Shown here: positions 37,451 to 44,565 of the stretch, one piece after another | How the letters are laid out: every line of letters begins with the position of its first letter | Numbering within the stretch: the first letter of the stretch is position 1 | Notes under the pieces: generated by a model | The model's input: the letters and a program-made list of their open reading frames with translations, nothing else | Database searches by the model: none | What the model was told of the DNA's origin: nothing | Made by a program: the position numbers and the translations under genes | Source: Campylobacter fetus subsp. testudinum 03-427 | GTDB lineage: Bacteria; Campylobacterota; Campylobacteria; Campylobacterales; Campylobacteraceae | Direction of reading: 5' to 3' | NCBI GenBank assembly: GCA_000495505.1 | Contig: CP006833.1 | Span: forward strand, 1,612,001-1,676,000 | DNA length: 64,000 nucleotides

Positions 37451-37512
37451 ATGACAATCAAAGAATTAATTGGGGCTATCAAAGAAAGCGAGTTTGTAAA
37501 AGGTTTAACTGA
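37231..37512 (+). CDS. Possible small basic protein or leader ORF, 93 residues
   Basis: Open frame with AAGGA 5 bases before its ATG. It is highly basic (many Lys, Asn, Ile), helical-looking, and without similarity I recognise. It covers nearly the whole gap and overlaps the next gene by 62 bases in another frame. Its last 20 codons run through the AGGAGG ribosome site of that gene, giving arbitrary-looking sequence, which argues against it or for a role as a leader frame. The hairpin at 37354-37380 lies inside it. Treat as tentative. Confidence 0.3.
   Translation: MRSKLQHISNIIQKLRKNKFIRTKYHATKNNMIKDSNHFDKSIELLKLYAEKLIFIQIIKQLKINILNRRIKKHDNQRINWGYQRKRVCKRFN
37354..37380. repeat. Perfect 11-bp hairpin upstream of the Cas operon
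   Basis: AGCATAGAGTT and AACTCTATGCT pair perfectly around the 5-base loop ACTTA. No U-run follows on the plus strand; on the minus strand TTTTATC follows, so it could end transcription arriving from the operon side. It lies 71 bases before the first gene of the Cas operon. Confidence 0.6.
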
Positions 37513-37963
37513 ATTTTGTAAAGATAACAAAATTGTCTTTATAATCATAGGTCTTATCATAATATTTATGGCATGCAACCACACTCTTTGGCAAATCTTT
37601 GATGGCGCAGTTACACTGATAACCGCTGTAGCTGTACTGATAAATATATCTATACAAGCTAGCAATAAAAAGAAAAATCTAGAAAAAATCAAGGTATATT
37701 TTGAAACAAATGGCGTAAAAGAACAATCCCCTAGATTTGAAATTATCAGAAAAGACTTTACTAGATCAGAAATAGCAGGATATCTTTCGTTTTTTACAAA
37801 AGATACAGTAAAAAGATATAGTATCGAATATCTCAAAGAACAAAATTTCTTTGATGATATATATAAAGTACAAGAGGGAAAATTAAACGAAGTTGTTATA
37901 AAAATCACAGATGGCGAACTAGAAGCATACGAATACAATATTAAAAACAAATCGTATTTATAG
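37451..37963 (+). CDS. Small membrane protein at head of type III-D-like Cas operon
   Basis: Unrecognised protein of 170 residues. It has a short amphipathic N-terminus (1-26), two membrane helices at about 28-46 and 52-69, then a basic stretch KKKNLEKIK and a soluble C-terminal domain of about 95 residues, probably cytosolic by the positive-inside rule. There is no CARF, nuclease or protease motif that I can see. A perfect AGGAGG at 37435-37440 marks the start and suggests high translation. The Cas10 gene starts 26 bases after its stop, so it belongs to the same operon. By analogy with membrane effectors of other type III systems it could be the output protein; this is inference. Confidence 0.75.
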   Translation: MTIKELIGAIKESEFVKGLTEFCKDNKIVFIIIGLIIIFMACNHTLWQIFDGAVTLITAVAVLINISIQASNKKKNLEKIKVYFETNGVKEQSPRFEIIRKDFTRSEIAGYLSFFTKDTVKRYSIEYLKEQNFFDDIYKVQEGKLNEVVIKITDGELEAYEYNIKNKSYL

Positions 37964-37989
37964 CAAATAACATATTAAAAAGGATATAA

Positions 37990-39354
37990 ATGTCAAAATA
38001 TCTATACGGTGCTAGCATACAAGGTATTCAAGAGTTTATCTTCAAGACAAATAAACTAGCTCAAATAATAGGAGCAAGCCAAATACTAAAGAGTATTCAT
38101 GATGATTTTGAACAAAGCTATGGAGTAAATAATCTCGAAATTTATCTAAATGCAGCAGGAAATATCCGAGTTGTCTTAAGCGATAAAAATGAGCTAGAAA
38201 AAATCGTAAAAGAATTTCCAAAAAAAGTTATGCAAAAAGCGTACGGCATAAGCATTTCTCAAGCAGTCATAAAAATAAATAGCGATAGCCTGACAAAAGA
38301 TGAGTTAAAACTCTTAGACGACGAGCTAAAAGCCAGCAGAAACAAAGCCACCATACCACTAGACATAAGGCTTAGCATAATGGACTTTGTAAGAAATACG
38401 GCTAGAGCGCCTGTGTTAAATGAAAAAAAGATAGAAGGCACGGAAAAAATAGACAAAGGTTCGCTTCAAAAGTATGAAAAAAGTGATAAAAATGAAATTT
38501 CAGCCATAAAAAATCAAAAAAACAAAATCGCAGTCATACATGCTGATGGTAATAATATCGGAGATCTCATTCCCACTCTTAAAAACATCCCCGATTTTTC
38601 TAAAAATTTAAATAAAGCCACAAAAGAAGCTTTTACTACAGCAACGAAGGCTATCAAAAATGGTAAATTTATGGAGATAATCCTTGGCGGAGATGATATG
38701 ACTATCATTTGCGATGCAGATTTTGCGCTTGATTTTACAAAAATATATCTAACTAAATTTGAAGAACTCACGACTAAATTTACAAAACACCATTTAACAG
38801 CTTGCGCCGGTATCGCATTTTGCAACGAGAAATTCCCATTTCACTACGCTGTAAATTTAGCAGAAAGTTTATGTAGCATAGCAAAAAATCACACCAAAAA
38901 TTTAAATCCAAACAAACCTTCATCTTGCCTTATGTTTCATAATGTACAAAGTTCAAATTTCCAGACTTGGGATAAATTTGTACAAGACGAACTCAGCGTA
39001 AAAAGTCAAGATATATCATTTGATTTTGGACCTTATTATTTAAATGAACCAAACCAGCCTAGTATAGAAAATTTGATAGAAATATGCAGAGCTTACGCTG
39101 ATGAAAGTAGTCCGATCTCCTCTCTTAGAGAGTGGATAAGAGTGCTAGATAACGTATCTTACGCTGAGTTTATGCTAGATAGGATCAATGAAATGCTAGA
39201 TAGATCTTGGGCGGATAAAGAGTTTATATCAAAATTATTTGCAAATTTATCAAATAAAAATCTTATCACAAGAAAAGACGGAAAAAACAAAACTCCTATC
39301 TATGATATATTACAGATCCACGCACTCACACAAAATATAAAGGAGCGACTATGA
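37990..39354 (+). CDS. cas10: Cas10-like large subunit, short form without HD nuclease domain
   Basis: Protein of 454 residues. It opens directly with the Palm1-type element YLYGASIQGIQEFIFKTNKL (residues 4-23) seen in Cas10/Cmr2 proteins. The second Palm carries ADGNNIG (185-191) and the catalytic GGDD at 233-236 (IILGGDDMTII), followed by a helical C-terminus. The N-terminal HD nuclease domain of most Cas10 proteins is absent, so it should not cut DNA but can be expected to make cyclic oligoadenylate. Usual Cas10 length is 700-1000 residues, so this is a minimal form. It starts after AAAAGGATATAA and overlaps the next gene by ATGA. Confidence 0.85.
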   Translation: MSKYLYGASIQGIQEFIFKTNKLAQIIGASQILKSIHDDFEQSYGVNNLEIYLNAAGNIRVVLSDKNELEKIVKEFPKKVMQKAYGISISQAVIKINSDSLTKDELKLLDDELKASRNKATIPLDIRLSIMDFVRNTARAPVLNEKKIEGTEKIDKGSLQKYEKSDKNEISAIKNQKNKIAVIHADGNNIGDLIPTLKNIPDFSKNLNKATKEAFTTATKAIKNGKFMEIILGGDDMTIICDADFALDFTKIYLTKFEELTTKFTKHHLTACAGIAFCNEKFPFHYAVNLAESLCSIAKNHTKNLNPNKPSSCLMFHNVQSSNFQTWDKFVQDELSVKSQDISFDFGPYYLNEPNQPSIENLIEICRAYADESSPISSLREWIRVLDNVSYAEFMLDRINEMLDRSWADKEFISKLFANLSNKNLITRKDGKNKTPIYDILQIHALTQNIKERL

Positions 39355-39869
39355 ACCTAAACTACCAACTCAAATTTTATGACTACTGGCATCTAAGTAG
39401 CGGTTTAAGTGGTGGTGCTAAATTTAATAGCATAGTTATCAAAGATAGCAACAGACTTCCTTTTGCTCCTGGTAAAACTATAAAAGGCTTGTTAAGAGAG
39501 ATGGCAAATTTAATAGATCAAAACTTTACAAAAATTTGCTTTGGAGACAAAGAGTGTGCAGGAAGTTGCTACTTTTCAAATGCAATTTTAGAGCAACAAG
39601 AAGCGGGTTACATCATAGCAAATTCATTACAACCATATCTATATGATATCATCGCACAAACTAGCATAGATGATAATGGCAATGCAAAAGACGACTCATT
39701 AAGAGTGATAGAAGTTGTCATTCCATTAAAGTTACAAGGTGAGATAAGAGATATACCAGATGAATTTGAATGCAAGATGAGAAAATCACTAAGTATGATA
39801 AAACAAATCGGGCTAAACCGTAATCGCGGACTTGGTAGATGTGAGTTTTGTATAGAGGAGCAAAAATGA
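39351..39869 (+). CDS. Cas7-like RAMP protein (Csm3 type), single domain
   Basis: Short RAMP of 172 residues. The signature LPFAPGKTIKGLLRE (residues 36-50) corresponds to the Csm3/Cmr4 'PGSSLKG' helix, and the glycine-rich loop NRNRGLGRCEF lies near the C-terminus. Cysteines C63, C69 and C73 (CFGDKECAGSC) fit the zinc-binding insertion of Cas7. At the position of the catalytic Asp of Csm3 I read Asn26 (FNSIVIKD against VDSPVVRD), so this subunit may not cleave RNA. Its stop overlaps the next start (ATGA). In III-Dv complexes the matching Cas7 is fused to Cas5 and Cas11. Confidence 0.82.
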   Translation: MNLNYQLKFYDYWHLSSGLSGGAKFNSIVIKDSNRLPFAPGKTIKGLLREMANLIDQNFTKICFGDKECAGSCYFSNAILEQQEAGYIIANSLQPYLYDIIAQTSIDDNGNAKDDSLRVIEVVIPLKLQGEIRDIPDEFECKMRKSLSMIKQIGLNRNRGLGRCEFCIEEQK

Positions 39870-41209
39870 AAGAGCTATTTTTTGAAGTAAAGTTTTTAAG
39901 CGATATTGTATTGCCCGCAACATCAAATACAGAAGGAAATATAAACTACCTTGATTATATACCAGGAAGTAACTTTTTAGGTATGGTCGCTCAAAATTAT
40001 GATAAATTTAGCGATAGTTTTGATATATTTTATAGTGGAAATGTATGTTTTAGTGATGCTCATATGGTCTATAATGATAAGATAACATATAAAACGCCCT
40101 ATTCGTTCTATCATCAAAAACTGAATAATAAAGCCATATACAACAAACATATGATAAGCAAAGAACAAGCAAATGAACTACGTCAGCTTAAACAGTTAAG
40201 AGTTGGATATATCACTGAGGATTTAGAGCATGTATTAATAAGCCACTCATACTCACAAAAATCATCATACGATACGCAACAAAGAAAAAGCAAAGATAGC
40301 ACAATGTTTGGTTATAAATCTCTTCCAAAAGACTCCATATGGATATTTTGCGTAAAACTAAAAAATGAGTGCAAAGATGAAAACTTGATTATATCTACAT
40401 TGCAAAACAGCTACAAGCTTGGTAAGTCAAGATCTGCTCAGTACGGACTAATAAAAATATCATACTTACAAGACTATAAAAGTAACAATATAAAGACGTT
40501 TAATGACTATGAAAATTATGATTTTTTATATGCAAATAGTCGTTTAGCACTCATAGACGACTATGGAAATCCAACGTATGATTTGAGTTTTATCTGTAAA
40601 GATATAGAAATTTGTTATGAAAAGACAAATATCCGCAACTCATCTTTTACGCCTTACAACGGTAAAAAAGCGCGTTTCGAGTCTGAGAGACTTTGTGTAA
40701 ATAAAGGAAGCGTCATAGCAGTCAAAAAACTTACGGCTGAGCAAATTTCTATCATAAAAAATGGTGTTGGAGCCTATAAAAGCGAAGGTTTCGGAGATAT
40801 AATCATAAATCCAAATTTTCTAAAAGAAAATAAACCTGAGATAAAAAATACTAAAAAAGATGATATAAAAACAGATACACAATATGGAAAAAGTCTTTTA
40901 ACCGAATTTCTAAAAGCCAAACGCGAATCATTAGATATAAATTTAAAAATAGCAAATAACGTAGCTAAACTTATAGATGAAAAACGTTATTATTTTAGCA
41001 ATGTTTCATCATCGCAATGGGGAAATATCAGAAGAGTTTGCGATACAAGCAATGATGAAAATCTTCTTGAAAACATAAAAAATAATATAAAAAAATGGGG
41101 TGATGAACAAGCAAAACAGCTTATAAACATTACTGAATCTATAAAAAACAATCAGTGTAAATTTATAAAACTATTTGCTATGAAAATGAGGAGCAAAAAT
41201 GACAACTAA
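39866..41209 (+). CDS. Csx10/Cas5-like RAMP with C-terminal Cas11-like helical domain
   Basis: Protein of 447 residues from the ATG at 39866 (RBS AGAGGAG); a TTG 18 bases earlier is less likely. Residues about 1-330 are a RAMP with a G-loop near SAQYGLIKISY and a second half ending GAYKSEGFGDIIINP, as in Csx10, the Cas5-type subunit of type III-D. A linker (about 335-355) leads to an all-helical tail of about 100 residues with SSSQWGNIRRV, similar to the small-subunit (Csm2/Cas11) 'SQIR' element. I infer Cas5-Cas11 fusion; a structure prediction would settle it. It overlaps the next gene by 11 bases. Confidence 0.75.
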   Translation: MKELFFEVKFLSDIVLPATSNTEGNINYLDYIPGSNFLGMVAQNYDKFSDSFDIFYSGNVCFSDAHMVYNDKITYKTPYSFYHQKLNNKAIYNKHMISKEQANELRQLKQLRVGYITEDLEHVLISHSYSQKSSYDTQQRKSKDSTMFGYKSLPKDSIWIFCVKLKNECKDENLIISTLQNSYKLGKSRSAQYGLIKISYLQDYKSNNIKTFNDYENYDFLYANSRLALIDDYGNPTYDLSFICKDIEICYEKTNIRNSSFTPYNGKKARFESERLCVNKGSVIAVKKLTAEQISIIKNGVGAYKSEGFGDIIINPNFLKENKPEIKNTKKDDIKTDTQYGKSLLTEFLKAKRESLDINLKIANNVAKLIDEKRYYFSNVSSSQWGNIRRVCDTSNDENLLENIKNNIKKWGDEQAKQLINITESIKNNQCKFIKLFAMKMRSKNDN

Positions 41210-42482
41210 AAGACACATAGCACACATAACGCTAGAAGCTCTAACGCCTCTAAAAGTAGGTTCGCAATCAGTAGATTTTTTGCAAGATTCGCCGGTACAA
41301 AAAGATTGGAATAACTTACCGATGATACTTGGCTCATCCATAGCAGGAGTTTTAAGAGCTAAGTTTCAAGGTAAATTTGAAGATAAAACAAGTGATATAT
41401 TTGGTAAAGAAAACGGCTCTAAAATCATAATCTCCAACGCTCTTTTGCTGGATAAAAACGCAAAAGTCTGCGAGACACTGCTTTTAGAAAAAGATGATTT
41501 TTTGAGATTATTTGAGAATTTGCCACTTAGAGAACATACTGCTATCGATGAAAAAGGCGTAACGATAAATGGAGCTAAATTTAATGAAGAAGTAGTGTTT
41601 AAAGGTTCTAGATTTAAATTTAGTATCGAGCTAGTAGAAGATGATAAAACAAGTTTTGATGATATCTTATCTATATTTGGAGATGATGATTTTAGACTAG
41701 GTGGCGGTGCATCAAAAGGTTTTGGAGAATTTAAAATCATAGATATCAGATATGAACATTTAGATACAAGCAAATATAATAGCTCGCTAAATTTTGAGCT
41801 AAAAGAGAGTCAAATTCAAAACAAAACCGACCAAAGTCTTACTAAGTACGAAATAAATATATCTCCGGATAATTTTTTTATGTTCGGTAGTGGTTTTGGA
41901 GATTTTGAAGTCGATATGACTCCTGTTTTTGAACAAACTATATCATACGATACTAGATCTATTTCAAATCCAAAAGTTCTTATACCTGCAAGCAGTATAA
42001 AAGGCGCCTTGCTTCATAGAACATTATATCATATATGCAAATTAGAAGGCATCACGGCAGATAATGGTTTAAAAGAAGCATTAAACAGCGCAAAGCTACT
42101 TATCGTTCCACTTTTTGGCGAGGCAAAAGATAGGGATAAAAACGGTAAAAAAGGCGATATTTTAATGAGCGATTGTTTTAAAGCAAATGACGCTACAACA
42201 AAGATTTTTGACCATGTAGCCATAGATAGATTTACAGGAGGAGCGATGGATAAGATGTTATTTCAAGAAAAAACCATCGCAAAAGACAATGATACTTACC
42301 ATATCAAAATCAGCATCAAAAATGAGCAAGAAAAAGATAAAAAACTCATCGAAGCATTTGAAAATACTCTTTTAGACGTGACATTAGGACGTTTGCCACT
42401 TGGTGGGGCTACTACAAAAGGTCATGGCGTATTTAGCGGAAAAGTTTTGAAAAACGGTACTGAGCTAAAGGAGAGCAAATGA
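41199..42482 (+). CDS. Double Cas7-like RAMP protein (Cas7-2x type)
   Basis: Protein of 427 residues made of two Csm3-like RAMP domains. The first (1-185) has LPMILGSSIAGVLRAKF and the G-loop RLGGGASKGFGEF (166-178). The second (215-427) has LIPASSIKGALLHRTL (261-276) and G-loop LGRLPLGGATTKGHGVF near the end. Both halves keep an Asp at the Csm3 catalytic position: Asp30 (QDSPVQKD) and Asp251 (YDTRSIS), so two RNA cleavage sites are likely. RBS GAGGAG precedes the ATG. The next gene overlaps by 4 bases. This corresponds to Cas7-2x of III-Dv complexes. Confidence 0.82.
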   Translation: MTTKRHIAHITLEALTPLKVGSQSVDFLQDSPVQKDWNNLPMILGSSIAGVLRAKFQGKFEDKTSDIFGKENGSKIIISNALLLDKNAKVCETLLLEKDDFLRLFENLPLREHTAIDEKGVTINGAKFNEEVVFKGSRFKFSIELVEDDKTSFDDILSIFGDDDFRLGGGASKGFGEFKIIDIRYEHLDTSKYNSSLNFELKESQIQNKTDQSLTKYEINISPDNFFMFGSGFGDFEVDMTPVFEQTISYDTRSISNPKVLIPASSIKGALLHRTLYHICKLEGITADNGLKEALNSAKLLIVPLFGEAKDRDKNGKKGDILMSDCFKANDATTKIFDHVAIDRFTGGAMDKMLFQEKTIAKDNDTYHIKISIKNEQEKDKKLIEAFENTLLDVTLGRLPLGGATTKGHGVFSGKVLKNGTELKESK

Positions 42483-42910
42483 ATGAATTTAAAACCCAAA
42501 AAGATATACAAAACTATATAAACTCACTAAAAAATTGCGTAGGCTACTTGCAAATCAGTAATGAAGATCTAAAAGAGCATAAACAAGATAGAATTTGGAA
42601 GCAAAAAAGTGATATAAATGTGGATTTTAGTAGCATAAAAGGATTTGTTTATGAGGCTCATTTTTTTGATGAGACACTCAACAAATCCATAGCCATAAGA
42701 CTGATAAACGGTACTTGGCTAGTAGATGAGACGAATTTATCAGATAAAGATATGCAAAATGAACAAATTTACTTAAGCGATATAGATGACCTGCTAGTAA
42801 AAATGGTTCAAATTTGGCAAGAGCAGCCAGATGAGTTTTGCTTGAATTTGCCGACGCTAAAGTTGCAAAAAGTAGTATTTGCCGGCTTTGCAAATAAGGA
42901 GAAAAAATGA
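42479..42910 (+). CDS. Small type III-associated protein (Csx19-like / TIGR04423-like)
   Basis: Protein of 143 residues, strand-rich in the middle with several Trp (IWKQ, TWLVDE). It has no catalytic motif I recognise. Its position between Cas7-2x and the TIGR03986 RAMP matches Csx19 of type III-D operons, and the size fits. The sequence also recalls the TIGR04423 group of type III-associated proteins. In III-Dv, Csx19 is a structural subunit of the complex. The start overlaps the upstream stop, and the stop overlaps the next start, both as ATGA. Confidence 0.6.
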   Translation: MNEFKTQKDIQNYINSLKNCVGYLQISNEDLKEHKQDRIWKQKSDINVDFSSIKGFVYEAHFFDETLNKSIAIRLINGTWLVDETNLSDKDMQNEQIYLSDIDDLLVKMVQIWQEQPDEFCLNLPTLKLQKVVFAGFANKEKK

Positions 42911-44565
42911 TAACCGCACCATACAACTTTGTTCCATTAAATGAGCAAATATTCTATCCAGATTGGGCTGATAATGTTAGCCACGATATACCATTTAGCG
43001 ACGCTCAAAGCGGAGAGATAGATATAACTATCACCGCTAAAAATCCTATATTTATCAAAAATCATACACCAGAAGGATCTAAAGAGACATTGGAGTTTTG
43101 TCATCACATAAATGAAAACGGTGAAAAAGAGTATTATATACCAAGTAGTAGCGTAAAGGGTATGATAAGAAATGTTCTAGAGATCATAAGTTTTGGGAAG
43201 ATAAAAATTGATAGTAAATTTAATACCATATCAAGCGTAAGAGATATGACAAATAATTCACTTGTAGGAAAAGCAAACAAATGTGGATTTTTAATAGAAA
43301 TAGACGGAAACACTAAGCTCTTAGATTGTGGCAATATCATAACTATATCACATAAAATTTTAGAAAAAGACTATCCGGAGCTCAAATCTCTAAAAACTGC
43401 GAAAGATAAATATACAAAATATGACTTATTAAAAGAAGTTAAATTTACTACCAAAAAGGAAAAATTCCGTACAGTAGCATTATTATCAAATGATAATAAC
43501 AAAGACGCTAAGAGTGGCTATTTAGTCTTCACAGGAGACATTGAAAATAAAAAATATGAATTTATATTTAAAAATAGTAGTAATTATAGAGAAATTTCAG
43601 ATGATACTAAGAGAAAATTTTTACAAGTTTATGATAACAACAAATCCATAGATGGAGAATATCTTATCAAAAAATCTCCAAAAAAAATACCGGTATTTTT
43701 TGTAGAAAAAGATCAAAAAATTGAGGTTATCGGTATAACTCAGCTATTTAAACTAGCTTATAACAAAACTATAGCCGATGCCGCAAAACAAGCCGCGTAT
43801 CAAGAAAACAAGTTAGACCTCAGCGAAACAATATTTGGCACTGTTACAAATTCAAAAGCTCTAAAAGGTAGAGTGTATTTTTCTCATTTTAAAGCTACTG
43901 CGTATAAATTTGCTACAAAAAAAGAGGTGATACTAGGTACGCCAAATCCAAGTTACTATCCAAATTATATACAACAAACCAAAAAAGCAAATCCATATAT
44001 CACACTTATGAATGAAAATGCTAAGATATCGGGCTGGAAAAGATATCCGCTTCATAGCGAACTTATGAAGCCGCACTTACCAAACGACAATCAAGATGTT
44101 CGTACAACTTTTATACCTCTAGATAAAAATACAACATTTCAAGGTAAGCTCAAATTTCACAATCTCAAAAAAGTAGAGATTGGCGCTTTGCTTAGTGCTA
44201 TCACATTTCATGATCAAGGTGATATTTGTATGCACAATATTGGTATGGCAAAGGCTTTAGGATATGGTAAAATAGATATAAAACTAGAGCTTCAAAATCT
44301 CAAATTTGATAAAAAAGAGTACTTAAAAAAATTTGAAGAGCTCATGACTAATTTTAAGTCGGACTGGAAAAACTCAGATCAGCTTGTTGAATTATTTGCC
44401 ATGGCAAATATTACAACAAAAACAAACAAACAACTAGCTTATCAACTTTTAAAAAATCCAAAACTAAACGATTTTACAAATAAACCAGAGAAAAATGACT
44501 TTATTTTTGCAAAAAAAGCAAAAAAATATCTAAAAGCACACTCGCAAAATAATGATTTAGCTTAA
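42907..44565 (+). CDS. TIGR03986-type RAMP protein (Cas7 with large insertion)
   Basis: Protein of 552 residues. The N-terminus (APYNFVPLNEQIFYPDWAD then VSHDIPFSDAQSGEI) is characteristic of the TIGR03986 family of CRISPR-associated RAMPs. The RAMP helix YYIPSSSVKGMIRNVLE is at about residues 77-93 and the glycine-rich end MAKALGYGKIDIKL near 445-460. A long inserted region (about 110-290) separates the halves, as in the Cas7-insertion subunit of III-Dv. The extreme C-terminus is helical and ends KKAKKYLKAHSQ. No catalytic Asp is evident at the Csm3 position. It is the last gene of the operon, followed by a hairpin. Confidence 0.82.
   Translation: MITAPYNFVPLNEQIFYPDWADNVSHDIPFSDAQSGEIDITITAKNPIFIKNHTPEGSKETLEFCHHINENGEKEYYIPSSSVKGMIRNVLEIISFGKIKIDSKFNTISSVRDMTNNSLVGKANKCGFLIEIDGNTKLLDCGNIITISHKILEKDYPELKSLKTAKDKYTKYDLLKEVKFTTKKEKFRTVALLSNDNNKDAKSGYLVFTGDIENKKYEFIFKNSSNYREISDDTKRKFLQVYDNNKSIDGEYLIKKSPKKIPVFFVEKDQKIEVIGITQLFKLAYNKTIADAAKQAAYQENKLDLSETIFGTVTNSKALKGRVYFSHFKATAYKFATKKEVILGTPNPSYYPNYIQQTKKANPYITLMNENAKISGWKRYPLHSELMKPHLPNDNQDVRTTFIPLDKNTTFQGKLKFHNLKKVEIGALLSAITFHDQGDICMHNIGMAKALGYGKIDIKLELQNLKFDKKEYLKKFEELMTNFKSDWKNSDQLVELFAMANITTKTNKQLAYQLLKNPKLNDFTNKPEKNDFIFAKKAKKYLKAHSQNNDLA

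Follow-up and report, generated by a model that had tools for sequence, protein, structure and literature searches.

Type III-D CRISPR systems serve to explain the origin of the single-protein RNA-guided effectors (Cas7-11). In the III-Dv complex of Synechocystis PCC 6803 (PDB entry 8s9t), each subunit is present once along a 37-nt crRNA, and cleavage of the target is due to three Cas7 aspartates (PMC11026444); Cas7 is there fused to Cas5 and Cas11 in one chain of 791 amino acids. The III-D complex of Saccharolobus solfataricus (PDB entry 8bmw, PMC9945777) contains five copies of a Cas11 encoded by its own gene, and seven Cas7, while III-E consists of a single protein without Cas10 or Cas5. 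The multi-gene III-D1 arrangement is the standard view of the starting point (PMC11026444), and a study of 2011 already described unfused as well as more fused versions of the system (PMC3150331). Type III-D is on record from Campylobacter fetus and C. portucalensis (PMC6953823).

The window analysed here is a stretch of 64,000 nucleotides from the single-contig, 1.775 Mb genome of Campylobacter fetus subsp. testudinum 03-427 (CP006833.1, positions 1,612,001 to 1,676,000). It contains an operon with the order csx23-cas10-cas7-csx10-cas7x2-csx19-cas7ins (positions 37451–44565, all genes on the plus strand), followed by tRNA-like sequences. For the core, from cas10 to the insertion-bearing cas7 (37990–44565), PADLOC and NCBIfam models agree and bear out the III-Dv-like order proposed in the initial annotation; nearly all of the 79 related loci, which come from many phyla, share this order. 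Cas10 (37990–39354, 454 amino acids) matches the PADLOC model Cas10d PDLC02058 over its full length (E 6e-215) and contains the GGDD cyclase motif, which is present in 60 of 72 aligned relatives; scans with NCBIfam, Pfam and PADLOC models recognised no HD domain in it. The stand-alone Cas7 (39351–39869, 172 amino acids) matches positions 1–171 of the 171 positions of PADLOC Cas7_IIId PDLC02110 (E 3e-81) and the Pfam RAMPs family. Csx10, the Cas5 of the system (39866–41209, 447 amino acids), is matched over residues 1–447 by the 439 positions of PADLOC Cas5_IIId PDLC02088 (E 4e-194); NCBIfam TIGR02674 reaches only E 0.037, under its cutoff, and the top Foldseek matches of Csx10 are III-D proteins. 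These are followed by Cas7-2x, with two Cas7 domains (41199–42482, 427 amino acids, PADLOC Cas7_IIId PDLC02107, E 1e-202), Csx19 (42479–42910, 143 amino acids, NCBIfam TIGR04423, E 3e-21, above cutoff, and PADLOC Csx19) and the Cas7 with an insertion (42907–44565, 552 amino acids, NCBIfam TIGR03986, E 1e-84, above cutoff).

The stop codon of cas7 (TGA, 39867–39869) and the start codon of csx10 (ATG, 39866) have the four bases ATGA in common, and the coordinates confirm that the two genes are separate, as had been noted. The TTG start at 39848 given for csx10 in the list of open reading frames is merely mechanical. Most unfused relatives have the same boundary, the four-base overlap being the most frequent arrangement. 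A frameshift that recently split a fused gene, or an error of assembly, would have in its favour that fused relatives exist and nothing else; it is refuted by the recurrence of start codon and overlap in many unfused relatives, including a congener at 87% identity, and by the match of both proteins to full-length models of separate proteins, and is extremely improbable.

When the locus is compared with the Synechocystis III-Dv system, gene order, the sequence of Cas5 then Cas11, Csx19, the insertion-bearing Cas7 and the aspartate sites of Cas7-2x are alike, and a motif containing R678 of the cyanobacterial protein can be aligned. However, the single Cas7-Cas5-Cas11 chain by which III-Dv is recognised is here divided over the two overlapping reading frames, Asp26 of Cas7 is replaced by asparagine, and a CRISPR array and cas6 are absent beside the operon. 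With the Saccharolobus complex it shares Cas10, Cas5 and several different Cas7 proteins, but it has four Cas7 domains and a single Cas11 domain, carried on Cas5. Residues 402–827 of III-E Cas7-11 are matched by the Cas7-2x profile (E 9e-48). Unlike III-E, the window has Cas10 and separate genes. The III-D1 type, as given in reviews and PADLOC models, is the one that fits: a Csx10-type Cas5, a III-D Cas10, Csx19 and a TIGR03986 Cas7 are present, cas7 and csx10 are unfused, and the Csx10 model spans the carboxy-terminal tail. Since the PADLOC models cover 171 residues and 439 positions, the separate Cas7 and the whole of Csx10, tail included, were already catalogued, without a Cas11 label. The operon encodes an RNA-targeting type III-D complex of a familiar kind that has been described before; with cas7 and csx10 unfused, it corresponds to the III-D1 starting point of the literature and is no new intermediate. 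What is new here is limited to the Cas11 assignment proposed for the unfused Csx10, the recurrent fusion of Cas7 and a substitution at a cleavage site.

The Csx10-like protein had been noted to carry a helical tail. In AlphaFold2 models of the full-length protein and of the tail alone, residues 344–445 (40895–41200) form an all-helical domain carboxy-terminal to Cas5, preceded by a low-confidence linker (residues 330–339 in the full-length model). Modelled alone, the tail is a five-helix bundle (pLDDT 92.8, pTM 0.83). When the full Csx10 model is compared with the PDB by Foldseek, the best matches are four III-Dv Cas7-Cas5-Cas11 chains, led by 8s9u_A (E 3e-19); this match extends over 528 columns, which exceeds what Cas5 alone would give. 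The Csx10 family was sampled from 17 of 298 genomes of the same phylum, from plasmid records and from 79 loci on genome contigs. Every complete relative, fused or free, has a carboxy-terminal tail of about 110–200 residues, and none of the 79 related III-D loci showed a stand-alone cas11 gene. In profile-profile comparisons, tails of separate clades match fused or cyanobacterial Cas11 domains with p values of 2e-4 to 3e-3, against 0.04 to 0.6 for reversed controls, and in the one profile alignment inspected, of Campylobacterota with cyanobacteria, the motifs are in register. A profile of the unfused tails finds the fused protein of a Sulfurospirillum MAG (locus L061, E 3e-19) and, more weakly, locus L092 (E 0.006), while its match to the Synechocystis protein is at noise level (E 9). 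Together, AlphaFold2 and the profile alignment argue with moderate strength that the domain is equivalent to the Cas11 domain of III-Dv.

The tail contains the sequence SSSQWGNIRRV (residues 381–391), which had been pointed out as lying close to the SQIR element of Csm2. Of 78 Csx10 relatives, 61 have an SQWG.IR-like motif, as does one of the 3023 other open reading frames of these loci. S383, Q384, W385, G386 and I388 are invariant in all 14 Campylobacterota sequences, and R389 is nearly so; the motif is thus not due to chance. MAFFT places SQWGNIR (residues 383–389, 41012–41032) on TQLGGFR, residues 672–678 of the Synechocystis Cas7-Cas5-Cas11 chain, with the arginine on R678, a residue that interacts with the nucleophile region of cleavage site 2 and contacts the scissile site (PMC11026444). 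Kinship with Csm2 is rejected at the level of sequence. In the Csm2 pattern [TS]xTQ[IMV]R the arginine is two residues past the glutamine, whereas in III-D it is three or five past; HHalign of the tail against Csm2 stays at control level, and Csm2 (PF03750) is absent from the Pfam families listed for 64 tails.

Given its position, its predicted fold class and the III-D motif, in place of the SQIR of Csm2, the tail of Csx10 is most likely Cas11. The description of the locus as an unfused counterpart of the III-Dv Cas7-Cas5-Cas11 subunit stands as far as position, predicted fold and motif are concerned; structure prediction gave the confident bundle without a significant match of the isolated tail in the PDB. 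In that Foldseek search nothing was found below E 0.001, the best hit being a Cas10/Cmr2 chain with E 2.7, and weak matches were to the Cas10 chains 3x1l_A and 9g9j_A. A sequence search of the PDB with a profile of 64 tails returned one spurious match (E 0.7). A phmmer match of the tail to iodotyrosine deiodinase (E 0.003) was judged to be due to chance, as it did not reappear in the profile search with the 64 tails. The tail might instead be a helical extension specific to Csx10 and unrelated to Cas11, with the small subunit being Csx19 or missing. The lack of a significant Foldseek match for the isolated tail fits this, as does the PADLOC model PDLC01049, labelled Cas11, which matches Csx19 (E 2e-46). 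However, the III-Dv structure shows Csx19 as a beta-rich subunit at the base and Cas11 as the carboxy-terminal part of the Cas7-Cas5-Cas11 chain (PMC11026444), and the tail aligns to that Cas11 domain with the RNA-contacting arginine in register, so that such an extension seems unlikely. As Csx19 is a distinct, beta-rich subunit in III-Dv, the Cas11 label on the protein at 42479–42910 is probably wrong. A free Cas11 made from an internal start was also considered and rejected: the linker of the window protein lacks in-frame ATG and GTG codons, and in only two of 78 loci is such a codon accompanied by a sequence resembling a ribosome site. Our literature search found no paper naming the tail of an unfused Csx10 as Cas11; the assignment to the tail would locate the missing small subunit of unfused III-D1.

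Cas7 is fused to Csx10 on plasmids of Synechocystis and Nostoc edaphicum, in Bacillota, Deferribacterota and Lokiarchaeota, and in one Kosmotogaceae genome, one Saprospiraceae genome and the Sulfurospirillum MAG. It is separate in Anabaena cylindrica, Nostoc ATCC 53789, Cloacimonadota, most Bacteroidota, Calditrichota and the other Campylobacterota. The Sulfurospirillum fusion (L061, 4821–6815, 664 amino acids) is in frame, with the linker reading through, and is nested in Campylobacterota; it is independent of the Synechocystis type. In a concatenated tree of 73 loci there are four changes between the fused and unfused states, all forced by starred branches, and the Cas7-2x tree of 62 rows gives four changes throughout the 5–95% interval of 200 bootstrap trees; both counts are unrooted and take gain and loss of the fusion together. 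The clade to which the window belongs is one of Campylobacterota and includes neither III-E nor the fused lineage of the Synechocystis type. III-E, entered as residues 402–827 of Cas7-11 with bounds taken from the Cas7-2x profile match, is placed on a long branch outside the clade of the window (starred, 99/91).

The initial annotation had seen in the operon a possible step from multi-subunit III-D to III-Dv and III-E. Its fusion state, with Cas11 on Cas5 and Cas7 apart, does lie between that of Saccharolobus III-D, with a separate cas11 (PMC9945777), and that of the fully fused Synechocystis III-Dv (PMC11026444). Against a genuine intermediate stand the at least four switches of state, seen in the starred branches and the 200 bootstrap trees, the fused L061 nested in Campylobacterota, and the position of III-E outside the clade, albeit on a long branch; an intermediate is improbable. 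Because fused and unfused loci interleave in the trees, one fused case sits within Campylobacterota and III-E lies outside, the window clade is a side branch and not a step to III-E. The observation itself is confirmed, and its evolutionary interpretation is supported in part. The distribution suggests that Cas7 was joined to or parted from Cas5 several times, not once on the way to single-protein effectors, and if Cas7 has repeatedly joined or left Csx10, the III-Dv fusion would be a recurrent state and not one lineage. The evidence tips slightly towards a general picture for the sampled III-D systems, in which Cas11 resides permanently in Csx10, Cas7 is recurrently fused and unfused, with at least four changes and one of them inside Campylobacterota, and the free Cas7 of this genus is dead for cleavage, favouring signalling through Csx23. 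If Cas5-Cas11 is indeed constant and the fusion of Cas7 recurrent, fused operons do not form one ordered series of intermediates.

Position 26 of Cas7, the catalytic Asp26 of the Synechocystis chain, is aspartate in 87 of 90 aligned Cas7 sequences and asparagine in the window (codon AAT, 39426–39428), in the congener L004 and in L087. The change is predicted to remove one of three cleavage sites; Cas7-2x keeps its catalytic aspartates Asp30 and Asp239. Two cuts of the target are expected instead of three, from which we infer that the signal from the complex might be longer-lived. The substitution offers a natural handle on the contribution of each Cas7 site.

Directly upstream of cas10 lies the gene for Csx23 (37451–37963, 170 amino acids), a membrane effector matched by PADLOC Csx23 PDLC01072 over residues 1–165 (E 6e-58), a full-length family match beside type III cas genes; Csx23 is also present in several related loci. 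The family comprises characterised membrane effectors; dependence on the type III signal has been shown in Vibrio, and binding of cyclic oligoadenylate and action on the membrane are known for the Vibrio homologue only (PMC11014256). The protein of the window is predicted to bind cyclic oligoadenylate. It is very likely that the locus is a complete III-D1 operon with Cas5 and Cas11 in one polypeptide and a separate Cas7, which would assemble and signal in a III-Dv-like manner. One copy each of Cas10, Cas7, Cas5-Cas11, Cas7-2x, Csx19 and the Cas7 with insertion would surround one crRNA of fixed length, as in III-Dv. The Cas11 tail would fold back along the row of Cas7 domains and bring its SQWGNIR motif into contact with the target RNA. 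Once phage RNA is bound, Cas10 would be turned on and synthesise cyclic oligoadenylate, by which Csx23 in the membrane would be activated; the two sites of Cas7-2x would cut the target, and the stand-alone Cas7, its catalytic aspartate lost, would only bind.

No CRISPR array is present within the 64-kb window. The genome carries a type I-B locus (cas6, cas5b, cas3, cas4, cas1 and cas2) at a distance of about 0.95 Mb, together with about 70 copies of the repeat GTTTGCTAATGACAATATTTGTGTTGAAAC. Several related III-D operons are adjoined by the repeat end GGGGATTGAAAC; a search of the host genome by query found no such III-D-type end. Since the window lacks an array and GGGGATTGAAAC is missing from the genome, which does have the I-B locus and its repeats, supply in trans is the most likely arrangement, with crRNAs and Cas6 probably coming from the I-B locus. 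In the two stretches read around cas6-like matches, a second, weak Cas6-like reading frame was seen (G000:C1, about 1438137; L131, 1480–2190, minus strand), with no array within the 17 kb examined and no match in a Pfam scan of the whole frame; it might serve the III-D system.

Some of the related loci have further peculiarities. In L024 (2894–3667) one reading frame joins the start of cas7-2x to part of the insertion-bearing cas7, and csx19 is missing, which looks like the product of a deletion. At L055 (6892–7608) and L085 (9028–9666; contig LLYS01000006.1), an insertion of some 32 kb interrupts csx10 near residue 238. Its ends resemble a transposable phage, with transposase-like, amidase and phage-structural reading frames as judged by eye. 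Four Campylobacterota loci have genes for Fic-domain proteins, absent from the window, inside the III-D operon (L026, 8167–9144; L028, 9295–10098; L031, 11665–12372; L038, 11550–12569). These adjoin csx19, between cas7-2x and the insertion-bearing cas7, two of them encode an amino-terminal RhuM domain, and they are possible ancillary effectors.
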